Source of the DNA: Oryzias latipes
Lineage: Eukaryota; Chordata; Actinopteri; Beloniformes; Adrianichthyidae
Assembly (NCBI RefSeq): GCF_002234675.1
Contig: NC_019859.2
Span: 28,639,973-28,703,972 of the forward strand
Length of the DNA stretch: 64,000 nucleotides
Reading direction: 5' to 3'
Positions 17,531 to 63,963 of this stretch are shown here, in pieces; the first letter of the stretch is position 1, and each line of letters starts with the position of its first letter. A program made the translations under genes and the position numbers. A model generated the notes under the pieces. It did not search any database. It was not told the DNA's origin and saw only the letters and a program-made list of their open reading frames with translations.

Positions 17531-18929
17531 TGAGCAGGCTGTGACTGTTCTCCCATCCGCTCGACAGCCGTCTCCAGGGCCGCCGGGGAGTGTGCGCTTG
17601 GCTGAGGCAGCTTTGCTGTCACACCAACAGCTACCGGAGATCATTCCTACCTCACTCCATTGGACGCTATAACTCCTCATCCATTTGCCACAGATAAACT
17701 CATTCAATGTCTGTTTTTTTAGAGCTGTTATCCGAACTGATTGTTTTCCTGATTGTTACTCATTGTTTGTTTTTATGAAATAAGCCAGTATTCAGTCGCC
17801 GCAACAACACAATTTCCCAAGCTGGGATCAATAAAGTATCTTTATCTTATTTCTTTGTTTTTGAAACCTATCCGTAAATGAAGCTTCACAAGACGCTCGA
17901 CGTCTTTCATCTTTAAGCATGGCTCAGATAATCCAACAACTTTGGTGTTTTTTCTCGTAAATTTCTGACTTTTTTTTCTCATAAATTTACATGATAAAAT
18001 GAACGACTTTATTCTCGTATTTAACAGTTATGCCTTGTTGTTGTTTTTTGGTAATGGCATCTGATATAAAAGAGAGCAGTGATGACTTCAGGTAGTAATA
18101 AGTAAACTATTGAAGCCACAAAAACTTCCTTTGACTGATTTCCCCTTTGAGAAAATAACTGCAGGCATACATGACGATTCAGTCACAGCAGAGAAGAATG
18201 AGGAGAGAGGTTCAGAGGATGGTGATGATGACAGAGGGAAAGAGAGAGGATCAGCTGATGATGAGGAGGGAGAAGAACAGAGAGGTACAGAGGAGAGGGC
18301 TGGGGCAAGGCATTACTCAGAAGATCCTTCTAAATGACCTTCACCACACAGAATTGGGGATTCATTGAGGAAATACATGGTTGAAAATGGCCCAAAAAAT
18401 GTCCTGATGGGCCAGATCAGATAAGAACAAATTAGATTACATTTAAACACAGAAGAAGTGTTGTATGGGTGTGTGGTTATCTTGAGGAGGGGTGGATGGG
18501 GCGTTTTATAATGTGTGTGTATGTGGGTGTTGGGCGGGGGGGGGGCTGTTATACTTGTGGCAACATACCCCTATGACTGGGTAGTTGCACCCCTGGGTCC
18601 AAATATGTTTGTTATTTAGGGTAGGGAAACTCGTTACATTTACGTTGGCTCTGTTTTCCTCTCACTCCTCTTTTATAGAAACTGTAATCACTACTTTTTC
18701 TCATGGTACAACATGTTCCTTCTCCAAAATGCTTTTGAGCGAAAGTGAGTGAACTTTTTTTCGTGTTGCGCAATAATAAGCAGTTCCATGTTGCGCCCTT
18801 CAGCGTAAGAAAGAGCGGCTTTCCCCCGAACCACGACCACCCCCTGACTCCGCTTGCATAATGAGAGCTGAACTCCTTGGCTCACTTTTTCCGGGGTGCG
18901 TTTAAAAAGTATCACAACAGTTCAAGTGG

Positions 18930-20350
18930 TCACTCGAGTCAGGGGACCTGGAAATAGACAGACATGTGAATCTTCCAATCAATGAGCCACTTCTTTGGTG
19001 ACGTCACCAACCACCTCCCCTTTCGACCAATCGGCCGTGAGGTGGGGTCAGCGCATTCAGGGGAGGGTAGCAACAGTTGCCCCGGTGAAGGCGAGGCGCC
19101 ATAGCCACGGTAGTCGTGGTGACAAGATCCAAGCAACTGGAGTCAACAACAACAACAATCTTCAACACCTGAGGAAATACAACCAAACCACAACAAAGAA
19201 CAGGACTCGGACACACGGGTAAAAAAAAGTGCATCTTGTGTGAATTTCGGTTTAGTTAGTTGATTTGGTGTTAATGTGCCCGTGCGCGTAACCGCAAACG
19301 TCCAGGCGAAGTCCGGGCGCGTGACGAAACCTGGAGCAGCTCTGAGCAGACGCAGACGGTTGTTATGGCGATGTGACATAATTTTAATAAGAGCACAAGA
19401 TGGCGGGTGTGTAAACGCGCACTTCTGACTTTAGCTTTAACGTCGTGTGCTGAACAGTCTGCCGAGTGTCTCTCGACACAGCACGTTAACCTGCCGGGTG
19501 CGGTAATGTGGTCACGCGCTCAAAGACTAACCAGTTAAAGAGCCGGCAGCTGCTGGTTAGTTTGTTTGACCGTCACTGACTAAGCGGGGGGTGGCGCACA
19601 CTTCCACACTGGGAACTTCTTGCTCCTCGGCCCCGGTGAAAAACTTTGGGCGACACAGTCGCAAAGACACACATGTACGAACTCCATGTTTAACGCTGAA
19701 AATGAGACACGCGCCTGACACGCGTTTCATGACGTCACTGTAACTTTGCAAACTTTCTGCGGTGACATTGAAGTCGTCCAGCCGCTTCCTGCGCTTCCGC
19801 ATGCGCGTCAACGCGCGTGCTGGTTTTCCAAGGAGCGACTCATTGGCTGCTTCGGCCCAAATCCACGACCCGAGTTGTGCGATTAGATACCATAACTCCT
19901 ACTTTGTATAGTTTTAAATAGTTCGGGGCTGGACCTATTCGACCTTTGACCCCACGCCTCCATTTTTTAGGGTTTGGAGAGTCTGTTCTCTCATCAGAGG
20001 AGGTTTTGGGGTGAGGGCTACCCAAGGAAGTGCTGTGGCTGGTTTTCTAAGTTTCAGTCCCCATTTTCCCGCCTCAGCTTTGGTTTAGGCTTCCCCTCCT
20101 GCTTGTTGCTCAGCTTAAACACACCTGATTCAAAAGGGCTATACCATGCTTTTCTTGATTCTTTCAGAGTAGACGATAATGTATTAGCTTTGGCACACTA
20201 CAGATTTTTTTAATGAAATATGAGTTGTTTTCAGAGCTCATTTTCCCGCCTGGGAGTAAGACGACTCGATCTCTGATGCACGTTTAGCTCCGTGTGGGCG
20301 CCGCCCATTTCACGACGTCAACCTAGAGGCGGCGTCTGCAGCATGTCTGT
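18930..20350 (+). promoter_or_regulatory. rfx1: CpG-rich promoter region and probable non-coding exon 1 of rfx1
   Basis: The base composition becomes CpG-rich here. A plausible 5' splice donor (CACACGG|GTAAAA) lies at 19218/19219 and would join to the acceptor before 22843, giving a non-coding first exon. The palindrome TTGGTGACGTCACCAA at 18995-19010 contains a consensus CRE, and a second TGACGTCA lies at 19730-19737. The transcription start was not determined. The exon 1 assignment is inference from position and splice signals only. Confidence 0.55.
18995..19010. promoter_or_regulatory. Palindromic CRE (TGACGTCA core)
   Basis: TTGGTGACGTCACCAA is a perfect 16-bp palindrome centred on a consensus cAMP-response element, about 210 bp upstream of the proposed rfx1 exon 1 donor. 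CREB/ATF factors bind this core (known). Confidence 0.6.
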
Positions 20351-22024
20351 GTCTCGCCCGCAAAAACAAACCACATCTGAACTTTTGCACTTTTTCCACA
20401 GAGAAAGTGGGCATGTGTGTTAGCCTGGGGGCAGTGCTGGCAGCGCAGACTCTTCCTGTTAGAGGCTGTTCTTCACTTTGTGATGTCACAATGTGAGAAC
20501 CTGCTCACTTCTATGGATTGGGAGGGGCAGGTGCTCAGAGATCAGGGTTTTAGCAATGTGAATGGGGCAAAATACCGATGTGGGGTTGTTTTTTGTGAGG
20601 AATAAAATATTAAGACTCTTGAAAACTCACAAAGTTGATTTTGCATGATACAGACGCTTTTAACCCATAAAGCTCTGCAGAGGCCAGATCATGACAGTTA
20701 TAGATGCAGGTGTGTTTAAGCAGAGAAACATGAAGAGCATCCAGGATGGTGGGTCCTGAGGTACTACATTTTACCTTCAGCCCCCCTCCACATTTTGCTC
20801 TTTAAATACATGCCAGATCTGGACAACTGCGACTTCAGGAACGCATCTGGATTAAACCTATCCTCCTAGGACTTACCTTCCATGCAACACGGTCATTACA
20901 CAAAGATCCACTGATGGCAGACCGAAGTGTAACAGATACTACTTCACCGTCTTGTAAAAGGGGTTTTCTAAATTATGAATATCAAATATAGTGGAGTGCA
21001 TGACCAGATAGGAGGAAAATTCTGTTGTCACCAGGAACGATGGATGTTTCTCTCAGCACTTTGTTTGTAGTGTGCTTCCATTTTTAAGGGCTGTTTAACA
21101 CTTTGCCCCACCTCTTCCACTTTATCTAAAATCACATTGTGACATCAAACACAGTGACGGGGCAGACATGTGACTCACCTTAAGCAGTGATAGAAACATA
21201 TCTGTCTTCTCACTGTTGATGTACAGAGGAAAACAGCTAAGTCTTTCCTTGCACTAATGTTTGAGGTGTGGTTCACTTCAGTGTGTACACAGACAGACCA
21301 TACAAAGAGACGACAACCAGAGCAGTTCCTGTTGTCAAAACCGTCGTTTTTTTTCTTTCTTTTTATAAGTGTAGCTTCCTGTCACTAATCCTTTTCAAAA
21401 GAAGTGGAGCCGGAATCACTGTGTTATTGTGCTTGTTTGTTACTGAAGTTCTTTCTAGCATTTTGTGCCACAGAATCACATTTTCCTGCTGCCCAGCCTA
21501 AAATCCTTCAGACCTTTTGACTTTTATTCAACTAGCAAGTTTCTTCTTGATAGAAAGTTACACAGTCTCTCCCAGAAGATGATTATTTAACAGAGACAAG
21601 ATTAAGAAAAATCAATCAAATACTTCATAAAAACTTCTCTTACCAGTTTGTGTTCCCTGATAGGTACATTTGCTCATTTGTCTTTGGCAGTGAGCTAATA
21701 AAACCACAAGGGGGGAGTGTCCTGTGTTTTTGTGTGCTGGTCCCATGCTCATATGGTCCTAATATGCTAAATACATAGGTCGTGTCAGGAAGGGCGTCCA
21801 TTGCAAACCCTTAGAATACTACATAGAGATTTAAAACTAGATCAGTTGTAACCCAGGAAAAAAATGGGTGACAGCAGTGGTGTTGATCTACACAGGGTGA
21901 AAACTGGACCACTGTTTGTTGAAAAAGGAGAGGAGGAAGGAGTGTTCTTCAGCAGAAAAACTAGGAGATCCAGTGTCTCTAGAGGAGAGAGAGTGGTGTT
22001 TGGAGCAAATACAGTATGTTTTTG

Positions 22025-22202: not shown

Positions 22203-22406
22203 CAGTGTTTCCCAACTCTTGTCCTCGAGACACGCTGTCCCGCATTTTTTCAATCCAAACCTGCTGAAATACACCTGCCTTTCATGACTGTCATTGTCAG
22301 GCTTCTGCAGAGCCTGACGATGAGCTGAATCAGGTGTGCATAAGCAGGGCAACATGGAAAACATGCAGGCCAGTGTGCCCCTGAGGACCAGGGTTAGGAG
22401 ACACTG
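22203..22406. mobile_element. hAT-type MITE in rfx1 intron 1
   Basis: It begins CAGTGTTTCCCAAC and ends AGGAGACACTG, with the inverted subterminal pair TTGTCCTCGAG and CTGAGGACCAG. It is 204 bp, flanked by CTTTAGAC and ATTTAGAC (7 of 8 matching), consistent with an 8-bp hAT target duplication. Confidence 0.82.
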
Positions 22407-22857
22407 ATTTAGACCATCCGCCTTGATGTTTCCACCAACTGAGCCCAGATTCAGAATGCACTGGTGGTGATGGCAGACTGATGAAGAACTTTAAACGTTC
22501 CCACAGACTGCATGAGATGTGAATATTTCCAGACATGTCACTTTTAGTTTGAAAGGAAAAGGAAGCTGAGAAATCTTTCCCTCCACTATGAAACCTTTTG
22601 TTTGTCGTCTCATGTTCCAGGAGACACACGTGTGTCATTTACAATCGAGAAAATGATGTATAAATGGGCTATAAATGATTTTATGCCTGACTGTATTTAG
22701 CTTGTGTGATGTCAGACAGAAGACCTGTTGCTTTTTCTGACCTTTGACCTGCATACATTCATGCTTACACACACACACACAAACACAAGACCTGTTGCCG
22801 CATGTAAAGCTCATAACAAGAGGTGCTTCTCTTTGTTCACAGACCTCCAAAGCATTA

Positions 22858-22871
22858 GTTTCCATGGCAAC
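22858..22871. promoter_or_regulatory. rfx1: X-box-like motif overlapping the rfx1 start codon
   Basis: GTTTCCATGGCAAC resembles the RFX-binding X-box (GTNRCC, 0-3 nt, RGYAAC), with one mismatch in the left half. The ATG at 22864 is the spacer plus first base of the right half-site. Confidence 0.5.
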
Positions 22872-25800
22872 TTGTAGTTACTCTGATGACCTGCAGCCTC
22901 AGCAGGTTGATGGTGTAACCATAGCAACGCCTGCCACCACCACACCTTCATCAGTAAAGACCACACATTTCCTGTCTGAGGTCTTGCCGACTTCTGGAGC
23001 CATTTCTGCAGCGGTCCAGTCAGCCACCATCTCAAAACCCCGACAGGATGCACTGTGTTCTCAAGCTGCACCCACACAGGCTCGGAGCCAGAGGCCGGTC
23101 GTCTTGGCAACTTCCACGCAGCAGTACGTCAACCGGGAGGTCCAGCACTCCGTGGTCCAGAAAAGTAACGGGCAGAGCAGCCCGCCTCAGTACCTCATAG
23201 TTACAGTTACAGGTGAGGATGGGGAAACCACACTAGCCTGCTTTGTAGTACTGCACCACACGTGGGTTACATCCAGCATGGCTGGTTGGACTTCAGGTTA
23301 AATCAAGGAAGGGTGTACAGTGTGGAACCTGATGATGAATCGCATGGACCAATGAAGGATCTTTGCCACCATCAGCATTATAGCGACGCTGTACTCGTGA
23401 GGGTGACTTTGATACTTTTAGTGGAATCAGATGGATGTTTAGAAGCTTAAAAAATGTGTCCAGGGGTTTTATTCTATCCTTGCTCACATTGAAAAACTAG
23501 AAATCTCTACAGAATGTACAGAAATGATGAAAAGGCAGTGGTTTAGCTCCCGCATGACATCATCCCTTCTGCTGGAAGAGCAGACTCTTCAAATCCCTTT
23601 GCATGGCACTACAAACCTAAAGTATTGTTCATGGAAACAAAACTCTTCCCCAGTTCTAAGCAGGGGAACAGCTGCTCTGTTTTGCCCTAAAGGGATGGAT
23701 GTTTTGTAGAGGTGTTGAGGACCTAATTTGTCACCATTCGAGAGGTAACTGGGACTGTAAGTTAGAAGTGGGTGGAGCAGCTACGAAGTGGCAGAAGCTT
23801 GCATGAACCTTTTGTGGTCAGAACCCCTTGAGTTGTTGTGGAACTGGAACAAAAGAAGATGAAGAGACACCTGGAGCACAATTGACTTTCATTTTTCAAC
23901 AATTATTTGGTCCTGTATTCTTTTAACCCTTGTGCTATCTTGTGGGGTCTAGATGACCCCACTCCCAACATTAACGTTGGGAGTGGGGTCATCTAGACCC
24001 ATTCCTTATCATCTAGACCCATTCCTTATCATCCATTCCAAGGCCCATTCCTTATTGTTTTTTATATTGGACCATGAAAGTATTATTCTACATGAAACTG
24101 GCCCGTGGCATGGAAAATGTTGGAAGACTTGTTACTCGTCTGTGTCTTGTGAAAGTCGGATGCAGTCCTCAGTCACTGATGATTGGAACCAAGACCTTGT
24201 GAGGAGATACTTCCCTATTAATAACTGTGACAGCAAAGAACATTGAAACAATTTTGTAGGTAAAGTCCAGGTAGACTTCAACTCCACAGTCACAGTAGAA
24301 GTAAGGGCAACACAAACTGCACAACAGCGAATCATTGTCTGTTTTTTAGTGTGACGCTTACAAAATTGTCTGTTCGCTCTCCACCCAGCACCCGTCCCAT
24401 GTTTGTCCGTCTTTTCAGTGGTCCACATGTGTCTGTTGTTTCCCTCCCTCATCTGATCTGCATGTTTACAAGTCGGAGGGATTTCTCTTTCCATCTGGGG
24501 AGCTTAGCTGTCCAAGGCTGTTTTACTGCATGAAAGATTGAAAGATGAAACGAGAATTGGAGCGTGACGCTCTTCCTCCTCTGCCTCTTTTCCGCCAACA
24601 CCTTCCAGTTAGTCCAGCTAAGAAGTCGTGAATGTAGCGAGATGTTCTGTGGAGGCTGTTACTATGACTTGGAAGCAGCATGTCGTGAGTACTGCTCACG
24701 TTGGTTACTTTTTCAATCAGCATTTATTAATCTGCCGTCTCTTTCTCAGAGGGCTCTGCTCACTCCAACGACAGTCTGTCAGACTCTAGCCCGTCGGCCC
24801 CCGGTGTTCCCACGCAGGCGGTGCAACCACCTCAGCAGGTGGGACACTAACATCCACATTTGTCTTCCTCTGGTCAGGTTGTCTCTGATCCTATGGATGT
24901 TGTTCACCCTCAGAGGTCAGTGCTGCAAGCGGCGTCACAGTCAGCCAAGAGGAATCAGACGAGCCACGTCGGCAACCTGCAGTCACTGCACATCAGCCAG
25001 GAGGTAACCAGACTAGCATGTCTCCAGGAGCACAGGACAACACAGTTATTTCTTTGTTTGCTTACCAGATCTAGGCATTCAGATCTCAGAGACCCGTCTC
25101 CCGTAGACATTTGTCCATGCAGTAACATGCCACATTAGGAAGGTTCTGCTAACTGGCCACAATCACGTGTGGATGCCTGACTTTCATTCAAAAAGTTAGA
25201 ATATTTTTAATTTAAAGAAAAAGAAGGTCTTGGAGAGGTGCAGCAGTAATATATTATGACATTCTATACATCTTAAAGGGTCTGTTTAGTTTTTTTTGTT
25301 GTTTTTTCAAGAATTTCTAAGCTCTTGACAAACTTTTTGCACTGGTCTGCTTACCTTTTTTTTCTTAGGTGTGCAAAGGCAAGTACCGGTAGTCCTAAAT
25401 TTTCAACAGCTTTGCAGCTAACAGTCCCTTCAGGAGTATTTTCTATGATTATCGCAGAACAAAAAACAGAAGTTGCCGCTGCTTTTCTAAAATGTTGCAA
25501 AAAAAGTTTACGTTTCAAAAATAGATTCAATTAAAGGCCATAAGAGGATGTACAAATATTAAAGTAATTTTTTTTGCTCAGTGTTTTGAAGTGCCGAACA
25601 AGAAATGCACAGACAGCAAGGATACCATTTTTCATTAAACAATCATTTGTTTCAAAATAAAGCAAACTTTTTTCATGTTTGCAAAAGAGAAACTGTAAAA
25701 GTTTAACAGTTATAGATGAGCAGCATGCTCAGAATGTTTTACACAAAAATGTCAGATGTCTACATTTAAACTAGAGCAAATACTGGTAAAGGGAAAACAT

Positions 25801-28800
25801 ATCTTTTAAAGAAATGTTTTATTCATTTTGTGGGGAAAAAATTATTTCCTCTTAGTGCAGTTGTTAGTTAAATGTGTCTGTTGGTGTCTTAAGCTCCACT
25901 CTGTTTTTTATTTTGTGATTACTAACATTTTATCTTAACTTCAATTTTTCCCTAAACTTCTTTGAGAAATAGAATTCATCATTAAACACAGGCATTAGGA
26001 AACAGCTGTTTCAGTTAGAAAGATCACTTAGACTGAACCCCTTGTTTCTCGGTCTCTTTTCTCAAAAACATCACTTTTTGGTCTAAGCCAAAAACACAAT
26101 TTGCAAAATGCCCAACTGCTCTTTGAAGAACACATGACACATTCTTCCTTTTGAACACAGCTGGCATTCACAACACACACGATTCGAAAACTGATCAAAA
26201 CAGAAGACACATGTTGCAAATCAACTGCAGTGAATATAAGAACAGTTCTAGAACAACTGAGCGGTTTTTCAAATGTGGACAACAGAGCAAGACCTGCACC
26301 AACTCAGACCTGCACCAAGAGCTGGACCCAGACAAAAGACAAAAACTGTTCACACACATGATAAATTTTACACATGTTAAATTTACACACAATAAATTTA
26401 CACACATTGTAAATTCACCACATGGTAAATTCACACACGCGCCTGCAGACTTTGGACACAACTTTCTGTAATTCTGTGTTTTTTCATCAATCTTTCAATT
26501 GACTTTCAAACGTGTTTAAACTTTGAAGGAGAACAACAGTTTACTTCCACTTCCATGAAGAGGTTTGTAAACTGTTGAAGCACACTTGTGAGTGCTATTT
26601 TGGTGCCATGTTCATATTTTTTCGGCAGTAATGTTAAAATTAAAATTTTAAGGACAATATGTTCTTTTAATTATGAAGCCAGTGACTTCTGTTTTGGAGA
26701 ATGGTCGTTTTTGTGTTGAATTGGATAAACGGACGGTGGGGTCACACGGGTATTTTACCCTTTATTATAATGGTACAGGTGAAACCATTCAAATGCGTAG
26801 GACAGCCCTGTTGTCCGTAAAGTTGTTCAAAATGAAAAAGAAAAAAAAAGACAAAGTGACTTTAACCTAAGAAAGACTCTACAAGATTGTTCAATGTTTG
26901 TTTTTGTCCTGTTCCATCTGGGACTGAATCACAGCACGAGATGCTGATTGACTGATCGCGACAGTATTACCAGAGGAAAGCTTTTATTTGAGATAAGAAT
27001 TAATAATAATTAATTAAAGTTAATTAATAGGATCTGGGTTATAAAAGCTTTCCTCATTACTATTGATTTTTAGTGTTAAATTGATGTAAAACTGGTCATT
27101 CTAACATTGTACATAACAGCAAATGTGAACAAATGAGAAATGAGTCTTTCTCCTCATTTAGGTGGAGCGTGTGTTTACGGGTCAGGTGCAGTATGTGGAT
27201 GGAGCAGGAGAATCATCTTTCCCCGCCTCCACCATGTAAGGCCAGAGCATCCTGCTTTCAGGTGTCTTCTTCACCTTCTGAACTTTCCTGCTCACGCGGC
27301 TGTGCACTCCTTTAAATCCAAGTATCTGTTTCTTTCCTGTCCAGTCGATCCAACACCTACCCCTTCTCCGACCCTGTCATCTTCTCCCAGACCAGTTCTA
27401 CGTCCTCTTCCAACTTTTATGAGGCCACACCCAGTCCAGGGTCAGACATTGCCGGCTCTGTGATCGCACAGCCCGTTGCTGTGGCAACAGCCGGAGGTAG
27501 TGGCGGTGATGCTGCAGGTGGAGGGGAGTATGCCATTCCTGTAGGCTACATAATAGGAGGAGAAGCAGCAGGCTCTGCAGGAGGAAGTCACAATTATGGC
27601 AGCCCCAACTCTCGAGCCCCACCTGCTACTGTGAGTCAAAACGTCCAGAAAGGAGCAGGACAGACAAACTAAACATGAGACATTTAATGCTATTGGCTTA
27701 TTTTCCCAAGGTGCAATGGCTGTGTGAGAACTATGAGGGGGCTGAGGGAGTCAGTTTACCCCGCTGTACCCTCTATTACCACTACCTGCTGCACTGCCAG
27801 GAGCAGAAACTGGAACCTGTCAATGCCGCTTCCTTTGGGAAACTGATCAGGTCGGTCTTTGTGGGGCTGCGAACCCGGAGACTAGGAACCAGGTACACAC
27901 ACACACACACACGACATGACATAACAGAAAAATTCCAAATCTGGAAGCTGAAATAGTTTTTTAAAATAAAATAAAAAGTTAAAAAATTCATAAATGTAAC
28001 ACCCATAACACCTGGACTTCACGCAAAAGCATCTTTTTTGAAGGGCTTTGTGTGCCTTTCAGAGGAAACTCCAAGTACCACTATTATGGCCTGAGGATCA
28101 AATCTGGCTCTCCTCTGCTCAGACTGATGGACGAGCAGCAGCACATGGCCATGAGGCAGCAGCCTTTCTCACAGAAGAGCAGGTATGAACACCTGCAGCA
28201 TCTGTACCTCACTTCACCTTTCATCTTCACAGTTGACTTCCTGAACATTTGATATTGGTGTAAGATTCTATTAGTGTGTCACTATACCCTCTGTCACCCT
28301 CCTGCTAGGATCAAACCCGTTCAGAAAGCTCCAGGGCTGTCCAATGGGATCGCAGGTGGGATAGGCCAGCTCCAGCCAGGAGCACCTGGAGATATTTCCA
28401 CTCAGGTGCAACAGTATCAGCAGTTCCTTGGTAGGAGCCTTCTTTGAATTCTTCATGTAGAACTGCAGGTTTTCTTTTGAGCTTCCTCTCACCATAACTG
28501 GACCCTGAAAGGCTTTCACACTGAGATCCATTCAGACGTTGTTCTTCTTTTTATCTTTGCTGATGTCGTTTTACGTCTTAAGTGAAGCTATGAAGAATTC
28601 CTTCTTCATAATTTCATTTGTTTATGATTTAGCATTATCACTGAAATCCCCCAGAGCTTGTTGTCTTTGTTTTCACTCAAAGACAATTAAAATGCTGTAC
28701 GTTTGGGAAGTTCTCACTTCCAAAACCTCTCAGAAATGTTCTCCAGTATGATGCGCTCGACTATTTAACTCTAGTAGAGCAGAGCAGAGAGTCAGCTCTG

Positions 28801-31800
28801 TCTGTGCTGACATGCTTTTACAGAAAGAACAGGTGAATGACCGAGGACGTCCCCTCTGCTCTCATGAGACAATATAGAGGCAGAGCTAAAAACAGGAAGT
28901 CTATGTCTGAGGCCATGTCAGGAAAGGAAGAATCTTTTTCATTTTCCAAAGAAAACATCAGTCGTGTCATCTTGTGATATACTGGTGATCTTGTGAGTGT
29001 GTGGTAGGATCAGCAATGCCTTATCATGAAAGCTCAGGAAGGGGTTTTCTGACGGTCCATGTGAAATGAACATCTGTCCTGCACAGAGACCTCCAGGCCT
29101 TTACCAGAGTTTGTGGACATTGATCTTCAAGGTCAGTCTTTGCCGGATGGGATCCAGTTGGAGCACCTGAAGGTCTTTCGGGATCTGTACAGAGAGCATT
29201 GTGAGGTGAGGAGATGTGCACACACACACGCACAAAGGTCTGTTCTTGAACTGCAAAAAGGCTGCTCTAAGCAAATGAACAGATGTGCAGATCGGAGCAG
29301 AGCTGTCAGGTGAACACGAAGAACAAAAACCCATGTTTACACACATGCCGTATCCAGACAAAAGGCCTCAATCTGAGGACCGTACATGTTGTATTGAAGG
29401 GAGTGTTGTTGTTTACATGTTTAGGACAACATTAGTACATGTCTTTACATGGTAACTGCATCCTATCCAGAAGAACATCCATGTTGTTTGATCGAGAACC
29501 ATGATGCTTGTTATCCCAATATTAACTGGCACATTAGATCAATCAGTTGAGAAATACAGATTGGACTCAAGTATTGGATAATCATGGTTAGAACTTCTCC
29601 TAGGCTCGTTATTGCTAAAAATTTGGTAGAATATTTTGAAAGCAATTAATAAATCCTTCTGCAGTTTGTGAAGAGGAGCCTTTTTCATTCGGGTGTTCAC
29701 GTGACATCACCCTGTTCAGGATAGGACCCAAACGTACAACCGGTGCGTTTCCCATCATTGAATCTGGGTTTGCTTCTCACAGGCTGTTCTGGACGTCATG
29801 ATCAACCTGCAGTTTAACGTCGTGGAGATGCTCTGGAAATCCTTCTGGAGGTTTAGTGAGAGCAACAATCCTGAATCCCCTGACCTGTGAGTATGAATAG
29901 GCCACGCCCTTTCACGCCTGCGGATTCACTTTTCTGCATTGAAATACTTTCAGCAGGAACGGTTCTAAACTCAATTAGGGAGCAATCTGATTCTGGTTGA
30001 TCCAGATCTTTTCCTGATCTAATCCAGGTCTGGTCCATCTTTAATCTAGTTTGGTCCTGGTTTGATCCAGGTCTGGTTTCCTCTGATGGTCCTCCTGGTT
30101 TTGCAGGTGTGAAAGTTCACCTGAACTTAACAAGAGAACTCTGGTCCTACTTAGAATCAAGGTTTGTTCTCTATGTAGTATGTTAGCGCAACCTGTCTCA
30201 CTTGTCTCCCCTCCAGGCCCGATGATGCAGAGAACTGTCTGCCCAAATCCTTGCTGGTGCTGCTGTGCAAGTTTGAACCGGTGCTGCTGTGGACCAGGTG
30301 GTGTGACAACCTGCTGTACCAGGCGCTGGTAGACGCCCTCATCCCTGACGTGCTCAGACCTATCCCCAGTACGTGCACGCTCGTGCCTCGACTGCACAGG
30401 CCCTTTAAAATGTGACAATGCAATAAAGCCCAACGGTTGTTGGCTTCTTGATTAATATTACAGATGGAACAAACCATCTCAGGGGGTGAAACATGAGAGT
30501 AAAAACCAGCTAAACTGAACCTTTTACAAAAGTGTGACGTGTGAATCTGAATGTGCTGTTTGACTCCTACCACCCACCCCCACCCCTCTGCAGGTGCCTT
30601 AACTCAGGCCATCCGAAACTTTGCCAAGAATCTGGAGAGTTGGCTGACAGGAGCCATGATGAACATCCCAGAGGAGATGGTTTGCATCAAGGTAACAGCG
30701 TTCTTCCAGACTGGACCTGTGTCTGATGACTTGGACCTCTGGGTTCAGAAACAGCTGTTTGACCATTCAGACATCGGCTGTCTCCAGCTGTCTTTAAAAT
30801 TAATGTTGATGTTCACTGGATTTGATCCTTTCTTTAGATGAGTTTCTGTTACTGGATGGTTTTAAGGATGAGAACAAACTTAATTTAAAAGAGCACAAAC
30901 AATACAAACAACAATAAGAACAAACTATGGAAACTCAAAAATAACTGTTGACGTCTACTTTTGGCCAAAAAAAAATGTAGTCATCCACCAATTGTGCAAG
31001 TTCTGTCTCTTAACCCTTGTTTTATCTTAGATGACCCCACCCTCACATTGACGTGTTCTTCCTACCATGACAAAGGCGGATAAAGGTGGAAAGATTTCAT
31101 GTAATCCATGGACACCAGTGAAGATCATAAATCATTGAAGAAAAAAAGGTTCAGACAACTTTCTAGTGGGTCTAAATGACCCAACTTAAAGTGCCAAGGA
31201 TAGCGCAAGGGTTAAATAAATGAGAGAGGCCTGTAATTCAATTTAAAGGTAAACCTCAACTATGAGAGACGGAGAAAAAAAACTGAAAGACATATTGTCT
31301 GATTTGTAAAGAATTTATTATTAAAATTAAGGTGGAAAACAAGTATTTGTCACCTACAAACAAACAAGATTTATGACTCTCATAAACCTATAACTTGTTC
31401 TGTAAGAGGATCCTCTGTCCTCCACTAGTTACCTGTATTAATGTCACTTGACTGAACTGGTTATCTGTATAAAAGAAACCCGTCCACAACACTCTTACCT
31501 CCACTATGCCCAAGACCAAAGAGCTGTCTAAGGACACCAGAAACCGTTGACCTGCACCAGGCTGGAAAGACTGAATCTGCATTAGGTAAGCAGCTTGGTG
31601 AGAAGAAACCAACTGTGGGAGCAATTATTAGGAAATGGAAGACAAACAAGGCCACTGATAATCTCCCTCCATCTGGGTCTCCCAGCAAGATCTCACCCTG
31701 TGGGGTAAAATGATCACAAGAACGATGAGCAAAAATCCCAGAACCCCACAGGAGGACTTGGTGAATGATTACCTGCAGAGAGCTGGGACCATAGTGACAA

Positions 31801-33908
31801 AGACTATCATCAGTAACACACTACACTGCCAAATCCTGGGGTGACCTATCCAGTCTCCAGATCTCAACCCCATTGAAAATCTCTGGAGGTAGCTGAAAGT
31901 CTGTGTTGCCCAGCGACAGCCCCAAAACATCACTGCTCTAGAGGAGATCTGCATGGAGGAATGGGCCAAAATACCAGCAACGCGTTGTAAAAACTTTATG
32001 AAGACTTACAGAAAACATTTGACTGCTGTCATTGACATCAAGTGGTATATAACAAAGTACTGAGTTGAACTTTTGTTATTGACCAAATACTTATTTTCCA
32101 CCATAATTTGCAAACAAATTCTGGAAAAAAATCAGACAATGTAATTTGCTGGATTAATTATTTTTCTCATTTTGTCTCTTATAGTTGAGGTTTACCTTTG
32201 ATGAAAATTACTGGCCTCTCTCATCTTTTTCAGTGACAGAACTTGCACAATTGGTGGATGACTTTTTGCCCCAATGTATATTTGTGGTATTCAATAATAT
32301 TTAGTTTTAAAAGACAGTTTGAGATTATAAAGAGTTTTCGTTTTTTGCTCTGCTGTAGAAATAAATTTACAGAAGTTATCATTTAAGGCGTCGTAAACAG
32401 AATATTTGAATATTCTTTGACATGAAGTCAGTCGATGTTCATGATGTTGGAACTCAGCTCCCTGTGGTGCTGAGCAGACGTAGGTGGTTACATGAAGGAA
32501 AGAGGTGGGGAAAGGCCTTCAACAATTTAGGAAAGGTTGTGTCATAAAGCTCTTCTCCTCCCCCACCACTCAGGTGGTGTGTGTCAGCTCGTTCTCCCAG
32601 ACGCTTCGGCGCTACACCAGCCTGAACCACCTGGCCCAGGCTGCCCGGGCCGTCCTCCAGAACTCAGCTCAGATCAACCAAATGCTCTCTGACCTCAACC
32701 GAGTCGACTTCAGTAATGTGCAGGTAACCACTGCCTGCATATGTGTGTGTGTGTGTGTCTTTGTTTCTGTGTATGGGTACTTATGTTTGTTTCTATCTCT
32801 CTGTCTGTGTCCCTGTTTGTGCTTGTGTCTTGTCTCTGTGTCTTTGTGTCTCTGTGTGTGTCTGGGTAAGTGTGTCTCCATGTCCATGTGTTTCTGTCTG
32901 TCTGAATGTGGGTGTGTACGTATGTGTGTCTCTGTGTTGAGTGTGTCTATATTTGAGCCTGTCTGTGTGTAGTTTCTGTATGGATGTGTTTGTGTCTGTC
33001 TGTGTCTGTGTGTCTCTATGTTTTTTGTGTGTCTCTGTATATGTTTGTGTCTTTTGCGTGGGTTTGTGTGTGGACCTGAACAAGGCCGGGTATGTGGGGG
33101 CTGACCCTCTGTGTCCCCCCTCCCACAGGAGCAGGCGTCCTGGGTGTGTCAGTGTGAGGACGGCGTGGTGCGGCGTCTGGAGCAGGACTTCAAAGCCACG
33201 CTGCAGCAGCAGAACTCTCTGGAACAGTGGGCCTCCTGGTTGGACGGCGTTGTGTCCGAGGCCCTGAAGCCCTTTGAGCAGAACCCTGCTGCTCTGTCCA
33301 AAGCTGCCAAAGTTTTCCTGCTCAACTGGTCCTTCTACAGGTGAGAGGTTCAAATCCGACATTGGTCTGTGGTTTGGTTCTAGCTCCTGGTTCCCTCTGT
33401 CCTCAGCTCCATGGTCATCAGAGACCTGACTCTACGCAGTGCTGCTAGTTTTGGCTCCTTTCACCTGATCCGGTTGCTCTACGACGAGTACATGTACTTC
33501 CTGGTGGAGCACCGGGTGGCCCAGGCCAAAGGAGAGCCGCCCGTCGCTGTGATGGCAGAAGTGCGTGAGCGGCACTCTGAAGCTCCGCCCACGTGTTAGC
33601 TCTGAACTCATGTGTGTTTTCTTCCCCCAGTTTTCCAACTCTGCTAAGAGCAGAAGCTCTCCAGATCTGGATAAAGGTAAGACAGACCCCCCCACACACA
33701 CACACACACAGGTGTTTTTGGAACCCTCAGCTGACTTTCTCTCCTGTCTTCATCAGAAGAGGAGGAAGAGGAGGAGGAGGACAGCGAGGAGGAGAGCGCA
33801 GAGATGGTGCTGCCTTCAGGCTCCCTTGGAGTTTGTGACGAGCCGCCTCCAGCCAAGCAGGCCAGGACGGGTCTGAATCTGCACGCGCTCACTGACACCC
33901 ATAGCTGA
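22864..33908 (+). CDS. rfx1: Transcription factor RFX1
   Basis: Coding exons: 22864-23212, 24750-24838, 24878-25003, 27162-27235, 27345-27630, 27711-27892, 28063-28182, 28309-28430, 29087-29205, 29783-29886, 30217-30368, 30594-30691, 32574-32723, 33129-33340, 33407-33560, 33631-33676, 33757-33908. All phases join, giving 844 aa. The winged-helix RFX DNA-binding domain (about 309-385) contains [19 protein letters not shown] and [22 protein letters not shown] and [14 protein letters not shown] favour RFX1 over RFX2/3. Conserved dimerisation regions follow ([37 protein letters not shown]), then an acidic tail (about 795-807) and [12 protein letters not shown]1 binds X-boxes as homo- or heterodimers in the nucleus. 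The protein is shorter than the mammalian one, mainly in the Gln/Pro/Gly-rich N-terminal part, so an extra N-terminal exon in 25004-27161 cannot be excluded. Confidence 0.95.
22915..22928. promoter_or_regulatory. rfx1: Perfect X-box consensus inside rfx1 first coding exon
   Basis: GTAACCATAGCAAC fits GTNRCC-NN-RGYAAC at every position. It lies 51 bp downstream of the start codon within coding sequence (codons for VTIAT). Confidence 0.6.
23927..24050. mobile_element. piggyBac-like MITE, truncated copy with long hairpin
   Basis: TTAA (23923-23926) is followed by CCCTTGTGCTATCTTG, the left end of the same family as 14314 and 31014. Inside is a perfect inverted repeat with 25-bp arms (23945-23969 and 23976-24000) and a 6-nt loop. 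The right terminus is not recognisable; instead CATTCCTTATCATCTAGACC is repeated. Confidence 0.75.
26345..26445. repeat. Minisatellite in rfx1 intron 4
   Basis: About five imperfect units of roughly 18-20 bp with a (G/A)TAAATT(T/C)ACACA core. Units alternate spacing and the last two carry TTCACC variants. Confidence 0.75.
30960..32277 (+). mobile_element. Tc1-like transposon fossil in rfx1 intron 13, with a MITE inside
   Basis: The inverted ends share CATCCACCAATTGTGCAAG on the left and CTTGCACAATTGGTGGATG on the right, running into GCCCCA-type termini. The interior carries decayed Tc1 transposase sequence (31490-31980), including GACCTATCCAGTCTCCAGAT and the region encoding NP(I)ENLW. Frameshifts and stops break the frame. 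The left arm is split by a 198-bp piggyBac-like MITE. A related copy is at 60870-61380. Confidence 0.88.
31014..31211. mobile_element. piggyBac-like MITE inserted in the Tc1 copy
   Basis: TTAA is present on both sides (31010-31013 and 31212-31215), with ends CCCTTG and CAAGGG. Comparison of the left Tc1 arm with the right arm shows the Tc1 sequence resumes directly after the second TTAA, so the MITE jumped into the Tc1 copy. TTAA target duplication is the signature of piggyBac-type transposition. Confidence 0.87.
32735..33075. repeat. TGTGTCTGT minisatellite in rfx1 intron 14
   Basis: About 340 bp of imperfect TGTGTCT/TGTCTGTG repeats between exons 32574-32723 and 33129-33340. It opens spurious low-complexity reading frames on both strands. 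Confidence 0.9.
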
Positions 33909-45379: not shown

Positions 45380-46470
45380 TGGACCATCAGGTTCTGGGCT
45401 CACTGACCCGGATGAAGACTCAGGACACACCAGAGAGACCAAGTCTCTGCTGGCCTTAAACCCTCTCTGGATTCCACCAGAGGAGCTGGATGAATGTCAG
45501 GACATCTTTGCTCGGACTGCTTCCCCTGCAGCTCAGCCTCAGGAGAGCAAATAATAAAAGGATGGCTTACAGTAAGCACACTGGGGTCAATATTTCAGAA
45601 ATGCTTGGATTTACACCGTGTTCCAGAGCCGAGGAAAAAATCTACAATCATACCAGTCCCCAAAACATCTTGCCCATCTACGATCAGCGATCTTAGACCA
45701 ATCGCGGTGACATCTGTGGTCATGAAATGTTTGGAAAAGTTCGTTGGGAACTTACTCAAAACAGAGGTATGTTCTCAGTTTGACCCCCTTCAGTTCGCTT
45801 ACAGGCGTGGAACTGAGGATGCAGTTGCTTGTCTAGTGCGTCTCATCTCAAAACATCTAGAGAATCCCAAGACTTATGCCTGGGTGTTGTTTGTAGACCT
45901 CTCCTCAGCCTTTAATACAGTACAACTTCATCTTTTGGTTCAGTTGCTTTCTGATTTGAAGGTCAATCCATTTTGTTAAATTTTCTGTATTCCTTTTTGA
46001 CCAACAGGCCTCAGCAGGTCAAAGTTAACATTTTATCCCAGGCCAAATTCTGTAGAACTGGTATTCCTCAGGGCTGTTAGCTTTCCCTTTCTTTACACAT
46101 TGTACACAAACAACTGTAGGACTAATGAGCCTTATTACATTATAGAAGTCTCTGATACTGGGATTCTAAGTCTATTGCTCAGAGACAACCCTCCTTCTCT
46201 CTACATGGAGGAAATCTCCTTTAACATCTGGTGTGGAAATTATTTAATGAGAAAAAGACAGATCAACTTTGATCCACGGGTGCTGAGAGAACACAGCCCC
46301 GTCACCATTAATAATACCATAGAAACGGTCACATCCTTTAAATACCTGGGTGGACATGTGGACAGTCTGCCAAACTGGAACGCTCACACTGACTGTCTGT
46401 GCCCGTGTGGCCCAAAGGATGGACTTTATACGACGTCCGAGGCTCTTTGATGTCTGTCACAAAATAATGT
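45380..46470 (+). mobile_element. LINE fossil B (L2/CR1/Rex-like reverse transcriptase)
   Basis: The frame at 45494-45979 encodes ISDLRPIAVTSVVMKCLEKF, DPLQFAYRRGTEDAV and LFVDLSSAFNTV, the RT fingers and catalytic block A of L2/CR1-like LINEs. After a frameshift, 46100-46450 encodes the 3' part with the motif SFKYLGGHVDSLPNWNAHTD. The FADD catalytic block is missing, so the copy is dead. Confidence 0.85.

Positions 46471-58347: not shown

Positions 58348-63963
<5,616 letters not shown>

Follow-up and report, generated by a model that had tools for sequence, protein, structure and literature searches.

The 64-kb stretch of medaka DNA that was analyzed (64,000 nucleotides; the window) harbors an rfx1-like gene on the forward strand, recognized by Pfam matches to RFX1_trans_act, RFX_DNA_binding and BCD_RFX, all on that one strand (Table 1). 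The DNA-binding exon (27753-27893) finds its best match of solved structure in human RFX1 (1dp7, E = 2e-23), with RFX5 a weaker one, and the combination of an RFX DNA-binding domain and the RFX1 activation region on the same strand identifies the gene as rfx1. The acceptor (TTCTCTTTGTTCACAG) and donor (GTGAGG) of the first coding exon (exon 2) were taken directly from the sequence; its frame runs into the exons at 24750-24838 and 24878-25003 without meeting a stop. Pfam searches returned no match above cut-off for exon 2 and no match for positions 27370-27669. For the protein encoded by exon 2, no relative was confirmed among contigs of viruses (36 pattern stretches) or of bacteria and archaea (257 stretches), collections that carry no information on its conservation. 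The ATG at 22864 is probably the start codon, because the stretch that we take to be exon 1 (19040-19218) contains no ATG and, 40 codons before the ATG of exon 2, the joined reading meets an in-frame stop; human RFX1 starts with M-A-T. Downstream of rfx1, a DCAF15-like gene, a KH-domain gene and an EF-hand/mitochondrial-carrier gene lie on the reverse strand.

Table 1 Features of the rfx1 locus and RFX-type sites (positions within the window)
Feature	Position	Strand	Details
CpG island	19000..19999		probable promoter of rfx1, with putative non-coding exon 1
Two RFX half-sites, everted AGCAAC-a-GTTGCC	19069..19081		starts 19069 and 19076
Third RFX half-site, AGCAAC	19132..19137	+	completes cluster of three in 70 bp
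First coding exon (exon 2)	22843..23212	+	21 nt of 5' UTR, ATG at 22864, donor GTGAGG
Site 1, GTTTCCATGGCAAC	22858..22871	+	13/14 to RFX inverted repeat; spans ATG; V-S-M-A-T
Probable start codon	22864..22866	+	T at -3, G at +4
Site 2, GTAACCATAGCAAC	22915..22928	+	exact to GTNRCCNNRGYAAC; 11/14 to palindrome; V-T-I-A-T
Site 3, GTCGTCTTGGCAAC	23098..23111	+	11/14; V-V-L-A-T
rfx1 coding exon	24750..24838	+	splice sites, frame
RFX1_trans_act (PF04589)	24875-25051	+	E = 2.2e-05
rfx1 coding exon, RFX1_trans_act region	24878..25003	+	PF04589
rfx1 coding exon with site 4	27345..27630	+	splice sites, frame; just upstream of DNA-binding domain
Site 4, GTTGCTGTGGCAAC	27475..27488	+	12/14; exact to GTNRCCNNRGYAAC on reverse strand; V-A-V-A-T
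rfx1 exon, first part of RFX DNA-binding domain	27711..27892	+	PF02257, 1dp7
RFX_DNA_binding (PF02257)	27753-27896	+	E = 8.1e-19; second match, 28064-28192, below cut-off
BCD_RFX (PF25340)	32601-32720 and 33135-33341	+	Pfam
V-x-[ILV]-A-T peptides	22915, 23098, 27475		joined-exon positions 18, 79, 232; Rfx1 N-terminal region
Other places of at least 11/14 in the window	48173, 60534, 60726		11/14, 11/14, 12/14

The CpG island upstream of exon 2 has a GC content of 0.52 and an observed/expected CpG ratio (CpG o/e) of 1.03-1.17, versus 0.10-0.32 between 20500 and 22999, with a value of about 0.25 around exon 2 itself (22250-22999). A TGACGTCA element and CCAAT boxes can be read by eye in the island region, as can an exon-like stretch; the latter is the putative exon 1, for which a donor is suggested at 19219. 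The island is probably the rfx1 promoter, and the start site that it suggests would place the sites in exon 2 approximately 3.7 kb downstream. The window contains 57 half-sites of the form RGCAAC/GTTGCY, and nowhere but in the island do three of them fall within 70 bp, with starts at 19069, 19076 and 19132. Such a cluster appeared in 1.5% of 3,000 shuffles of positions 18800-20400 (P = 0.015) and in 12% of 60 shuffles of the whole window, which makes it a suggestive, not a strong, candidate for a classical autorepression element.

Half-sites of this kind have been reported for RFX1. Self-repression of RFX1 is indeed described at its promoter, where the earlier note had placed it: PMC2797782, citing Lubelsky 2005, attributes it to promoter half-sites, and both PMC3174211 and PMC8106159 state that RFX1 represses its own promoter. 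PMC5838959 presents RFX1, through this autorepression, as perhaps the only RFX gene that regulates itself. The medaka locus resembles this system in that an rfx1 gene carries RFX-type sites to which the Rfx1 protein could bind, and the half-sites in the putative promoter are of the reported type. A further resemblance is to the CpG-island promoter of mouse Rfx2, which has three half-sites, including one reversed-inversion arrangement as at 19069-19137; the mouse promoter differs in belonging to another paralogue and in the order and spacing of its half-sites, and binding there is cited as unpublished (PMC2797782).

The sites in exon 2 are of another type: X-box-like palindromes in a coding exon, one of them over the ATG, and not promoter half-sites. 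Both 14-mers that the earlier note had singled out lie where it placed them, at 22858-22871 and 22915-22928 (sites 1 and 2). Compared with the X-box consensus GTNRCCNNRGYAAC, site 2 matches at every position and site 1, within which the ATG at 22864-22866 lies, departs from it once, with T in place of R at position 4, just as that note had read them; both sites are exact to the looser consensus GTHNYYATRRNAAC. As for the letters of these consensus strings, RGYAAC was not found in the main text of PMC2797782, nor GTHNYY in that of PMC1794439, nor GTNRCC or RGYAAC in that of PMC5760533. PMC2797782 describes the X-box as an inverted repeat of GTTGCC, and palindromes were scored here by their identity to GTTGCCATGGCAAC, the GTTGCC inverted repeat with an AT spacer. 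By this score, two further sites are found in rfx1 coding exons that the earlier note did not include (sites 3 and 4). All four resemble a GTTGCC inverted repeat with a spacer of 0-3 nt (13/14, 11/14, 11/14 and 12/14 for sites 1 to 4), and site 1 scores highest of all RFX palindromes in the window.

The four exonic sites also share one reading frame (chance 1/27, calculated by hand). Read in this frame, the ideal palindrome GTTGCCATGGCAAC, with CCATGG at its center, translates as V-A-M-A-T, and site 1 reads V-S-M-A-T, its first two codons being 5' UTR, where the hexamer GTTTCC directly precedes the ATG. When the strings of the sites and of the start-codon region were sought in open-access full texts, only GTTGCTGTGGCAAC was matched, in a paper on CHD5 methylation.

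Comparison with shuffled DNA was made over the whole window. Exact matches to GTNRCCNNRGYAAC number two (0.18 expected; at least two in 3 of 100 shuffles), and if one mismatch is allowed there are 11 strand-hits at 9 places (5.47 expected; at least 11 in 3 of 100 shuffles). The looser GTHNYYATRRNAAC gives four strand-hits at three places (0.40 expected), a number that none of 100 shuffles reached. Identity of at least 11/14 to GTTGCCATGGCAAC occurs at seven places, four of them inside rfx1 coding exons, compared with a mean of 3.49 places in 300 whole-window shuffles; a 13/14 site was present in 1% of the latter, and in none was such a site accompanied, no more than 57 bp away, by another of at least 11/14. 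Thus, measured against random DNA, the exonic sites are more than chance would provide.

Coding DNA is not random, and what the protein and the 5' UTR impose was estimated by holding both fixed while synonymous codons were permuted 4,000 times in the exon segments 22864-23212, 24750-24838, 24878-25003 and 27346-27630 (coding exons at 25.0-27.3 kb and after 27.9 kb were left out). In a second null, codons were sampled according to their usage in these exons together with the DNA-binding exon. Over the four exons, the four sites of at least 11/14 compare with a permutation mean of 1.88 (P = 0.029; codon sampling, P = 0.017). Within exon 2, excesses were seen for GTHNYYATRRNAAC on the forward strand (2 observed, mean 0.43, P = 0.019; codon sampling, P = 0.017), for X-boxes with at most one mismatch (4 observed, mean 1.79, P = 0.012; codon sampling, P = 0.019) and for exact X-boxes (1 observed, mean 0.04, P = 0.041; codon sampling, P = 0.051). 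The number of exon 2 sites of at least 11/14 was less unusual (3 observed, mean 1.53, P = 0.073; codon sampling, P = 0.060), and 38% of permutations gave exon 2 a best match of 13/14 or higher (codon sampling, 0.33). These six measures overlap and were picked after the sites were known. When codon order itself was shuffled, the mean number of sites of at least 11/14 fell to 0.06, and when the first three codons were kept and the rest reordered it was 1.05; in either case, none of 20,000 shuffles reached four. The low mean under codon-order shuffling indicates that the order of the protein carries much of the effect. Together, the nulls attribute about half of the sites to protein order and UTR and leave a modest synonymous excess, which is weak and post hoc evidence for DNA-level selection on the exonic sites.

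Codon usage alone gives the observed score in 25% of draws for VTIAT, 22% for VVLAT and 7% for VAVAT, and site 1, once its UTR hexamer is given, needs only GCA for alanine (35%). With the UTR left free, a 13/14 site over an M-A-T start has a probability of 0.002 with uniform bases, or 0.005 with Kozak-like frequencies. The left half of site 1 lies in the 5' UTR and so is not explained by the peptide. Codon choice also speaks against the peptide reading: among the eight Ala-Thr dipeptides in the exons examined, alanine is encoded by GCA in 4/4 that follow M, I, L or V and in 0/4 otherwise, the other four using GCC, GCC, GCC and GCT (one-sided Fisher 1/70, by hand and post hoc). The motif V-x-[MILV]-A-T, which was defined after the sites had been seen, occurs three times in the joined exons versus 0.04 by amino-acid shuffling, with 0 of 50,000 shuffles reaching three. 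This peptide repeat is either protein-driven or DNA-driven, and a DNA-level origin could itself have made it; the single frame common to the sites is what a peptide-driven origin predicts, and DNA-level selection alone would not require it.

The exonic X-boxes are probably, in the main, a by-product of coding, with any self-control of rfx1 residing in the promoter. Since the ideal palindrome spells V-A-M-A-T in one frame, peptides similar to this would tend to be encoded by X-box-like DNA. The three V-x-[ILV]-A-T peptides in the N-terminal part of Rfx1 could thereby generate such DNA without selection on binding, and site 1 would arise where an M-A-T start follows a UTR hexamer that is GTTTCC by coincidence. 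Counting against a by-product of coding are the residual synonymous excess, the UTR half of site 1, the GCA pattern, the absence of four sites from all 20,000 reorderings that kept the first three codons, and the marginal standing of the promoter half-site cluster. If rfx1 represses itself, the half-sites of the CpG island near 19.07-19.14 kb would be the likelier elements. Site 1 is nevertheless likely, judged by its sequence, to bind RFX in vitro, since X-boxes closer to the perfect inverted repeat show higher affinity in EMSA (PMC2797782); in vivo, RFX proteins may bind it, perhaps weakly, and it would not be the main point of control. The same reasoning offers a lesson for controls: a binding palindrome that translates as V-A-M-A-T should turn up repeatedly at start codons and wherever Ala-Thr follows hydrophobic residues, and a motif hit in such a place should be compared with a synonymous null before a regulatory role is assigned to it.

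The earlier note had instead suggested autoregulation through the exon, in which RFX1 dimers on the ATG palindrome, helped by site 2, would repress or enhance rfx1 and the coding sequence would serve two uses. This is less likely, unproven and, in our estimate, doubtful; site 1 itself may well bind RFX. It is weakened in three ways: V-x-[MILV]-A-T peptides make X-box-like DNA by themselves, the exon lies some 3.7 kb beyond the putative start, and the probable promoter has an RFX half-site cluster of its own. In addition, site 2 reaches only 11/14, and site 1 has T at -3, where a G would give a better X-box and would also improve the start-codon context. In favor of exonic action are the 13/14 score of site 1, given that relation between affinity and the ideal repeat, and the synonymous excess left after the coding control (P = 0.012-0.041 for four measures out of six), which leaves the suggestion some footing. 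On the other side, X-boxes of validated human targets lie between -500 and +500 (robust) or -2300 and +1400 (permissive) of start sites, and exon 2 would fall outside even the wider interval; moreover, human RFX genes are reported to be without over-represented RFX motifs (both PMC5838959).

Exonic binding by RFX proteins is not new in kind. Exons, with introns and intergenic DNA, are among the locations of the nearly 3,000 RFX2 ChIP peaks, of which about one-third are at promoters; by contrast, the most robust peaks favor promoters (PMC4498915). More generally, 24 of 31 conserved coding exons tested in zebrafish had enhancer activity, and 7.3% of human coding exons are bound by at least one factor (PMC3342275). 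The rfx1 sites resemble such coding enhancers and duons in placing a putative binding motif over codons of a regulator gene. The first-exon RFX site of COL1A2 (-1 to +20) offers another likeness, as RFX1 acts there at a first exon; the COL1A2 site extends across the transcription start and is bound more strongly when methylated (PMC8106159, PMC12712669), unlike sites 1 and 2 of rfx1, which contain no CpG and would lie far from the start. Among the matches listed by one open-access library, no title or opening of an abstract mentioned an rfx gene with an X-box in its exons or across its start codon. Were autoregulation through the exon true, synonymous variants and codon-altered rfx1 transgenes would shift RFX1 dosage. 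This would be relevant to the reading of coding variants; mice that lose RFX1 die as embryos (PMC5838959).

Chance alone, without any contribution from the peptides, by which two motifs would be close by coincidence and have been noticed since the gene is rfx1, is unlikely. In its favor, the window was read for anything striking, and 64 kb should hold 5.5 strand-hits if up to one mismatch is allowed; against it, four sites of at least 11/14 lie in about 0.87 kb of exons and UTR, where codon-order shuffling yields 0.06 (0 of 20,000 reaching four), and all four are in one frame. It is also quite improbable that the four in-frame X-boxes form a dispersed array, translated as a V-x-[MILV]-A-T repeat of the N-terminal region of Rfx1 and encoding part of the activation region while acting as an intragenic sensor of RFX1 dose, strongest over the start codon. 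What stands of the earlier reading of the motifs is that their sequences make good X-boxes, that they lie in the first coding exon and that one is over a plausible start. The internal promoter that was part of this reading, in which a short rfx1 transcript would begin with exon 2 and have the X-boxes as promoter elements, accords with the usual proximity of X-boxes to start sites but was judged unlikely, indeed very improbable, on CpG content (CpG o/e about 0.25 at 22250-22999 versus 1.03-1.17 in the upstream island) and on the good splice acceptor directly before exon 2.

Several other features were observed in the window. The intron after exon 2 contains an inverted repeat with abutting 28-nt arms (23945-24000; 96% complementary), the second arm of which overlaps a tandem 20-mer (23989-24028). 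A GC-rich stretch at 501-2500 (0.62-0.66) has long open frames on both strands, one of which (1471-2454) gave no Pfam match. A reverse transcriptase fragment lies at 45494-45976 (RVT_1, E = 7e-14), and relics of Tc1/Sleeping Beauty-like transposases at 31456-31710 and 61002-61292 (HTH_SB 42.9 bits versus a cut-off of 43; DDE_3 below cut-off). Beside the EF-hand/mitochondrial-carrier gene, three X-box-like matches occur within approximately 540 bp (60534, 60726 and 61062). The last of these, GTTGCCCAGCAAC, has a 1-nt spacer and otherwise fits the consensus exactly, lies inside a weak DDE transposase match and is an example of a background X-box.
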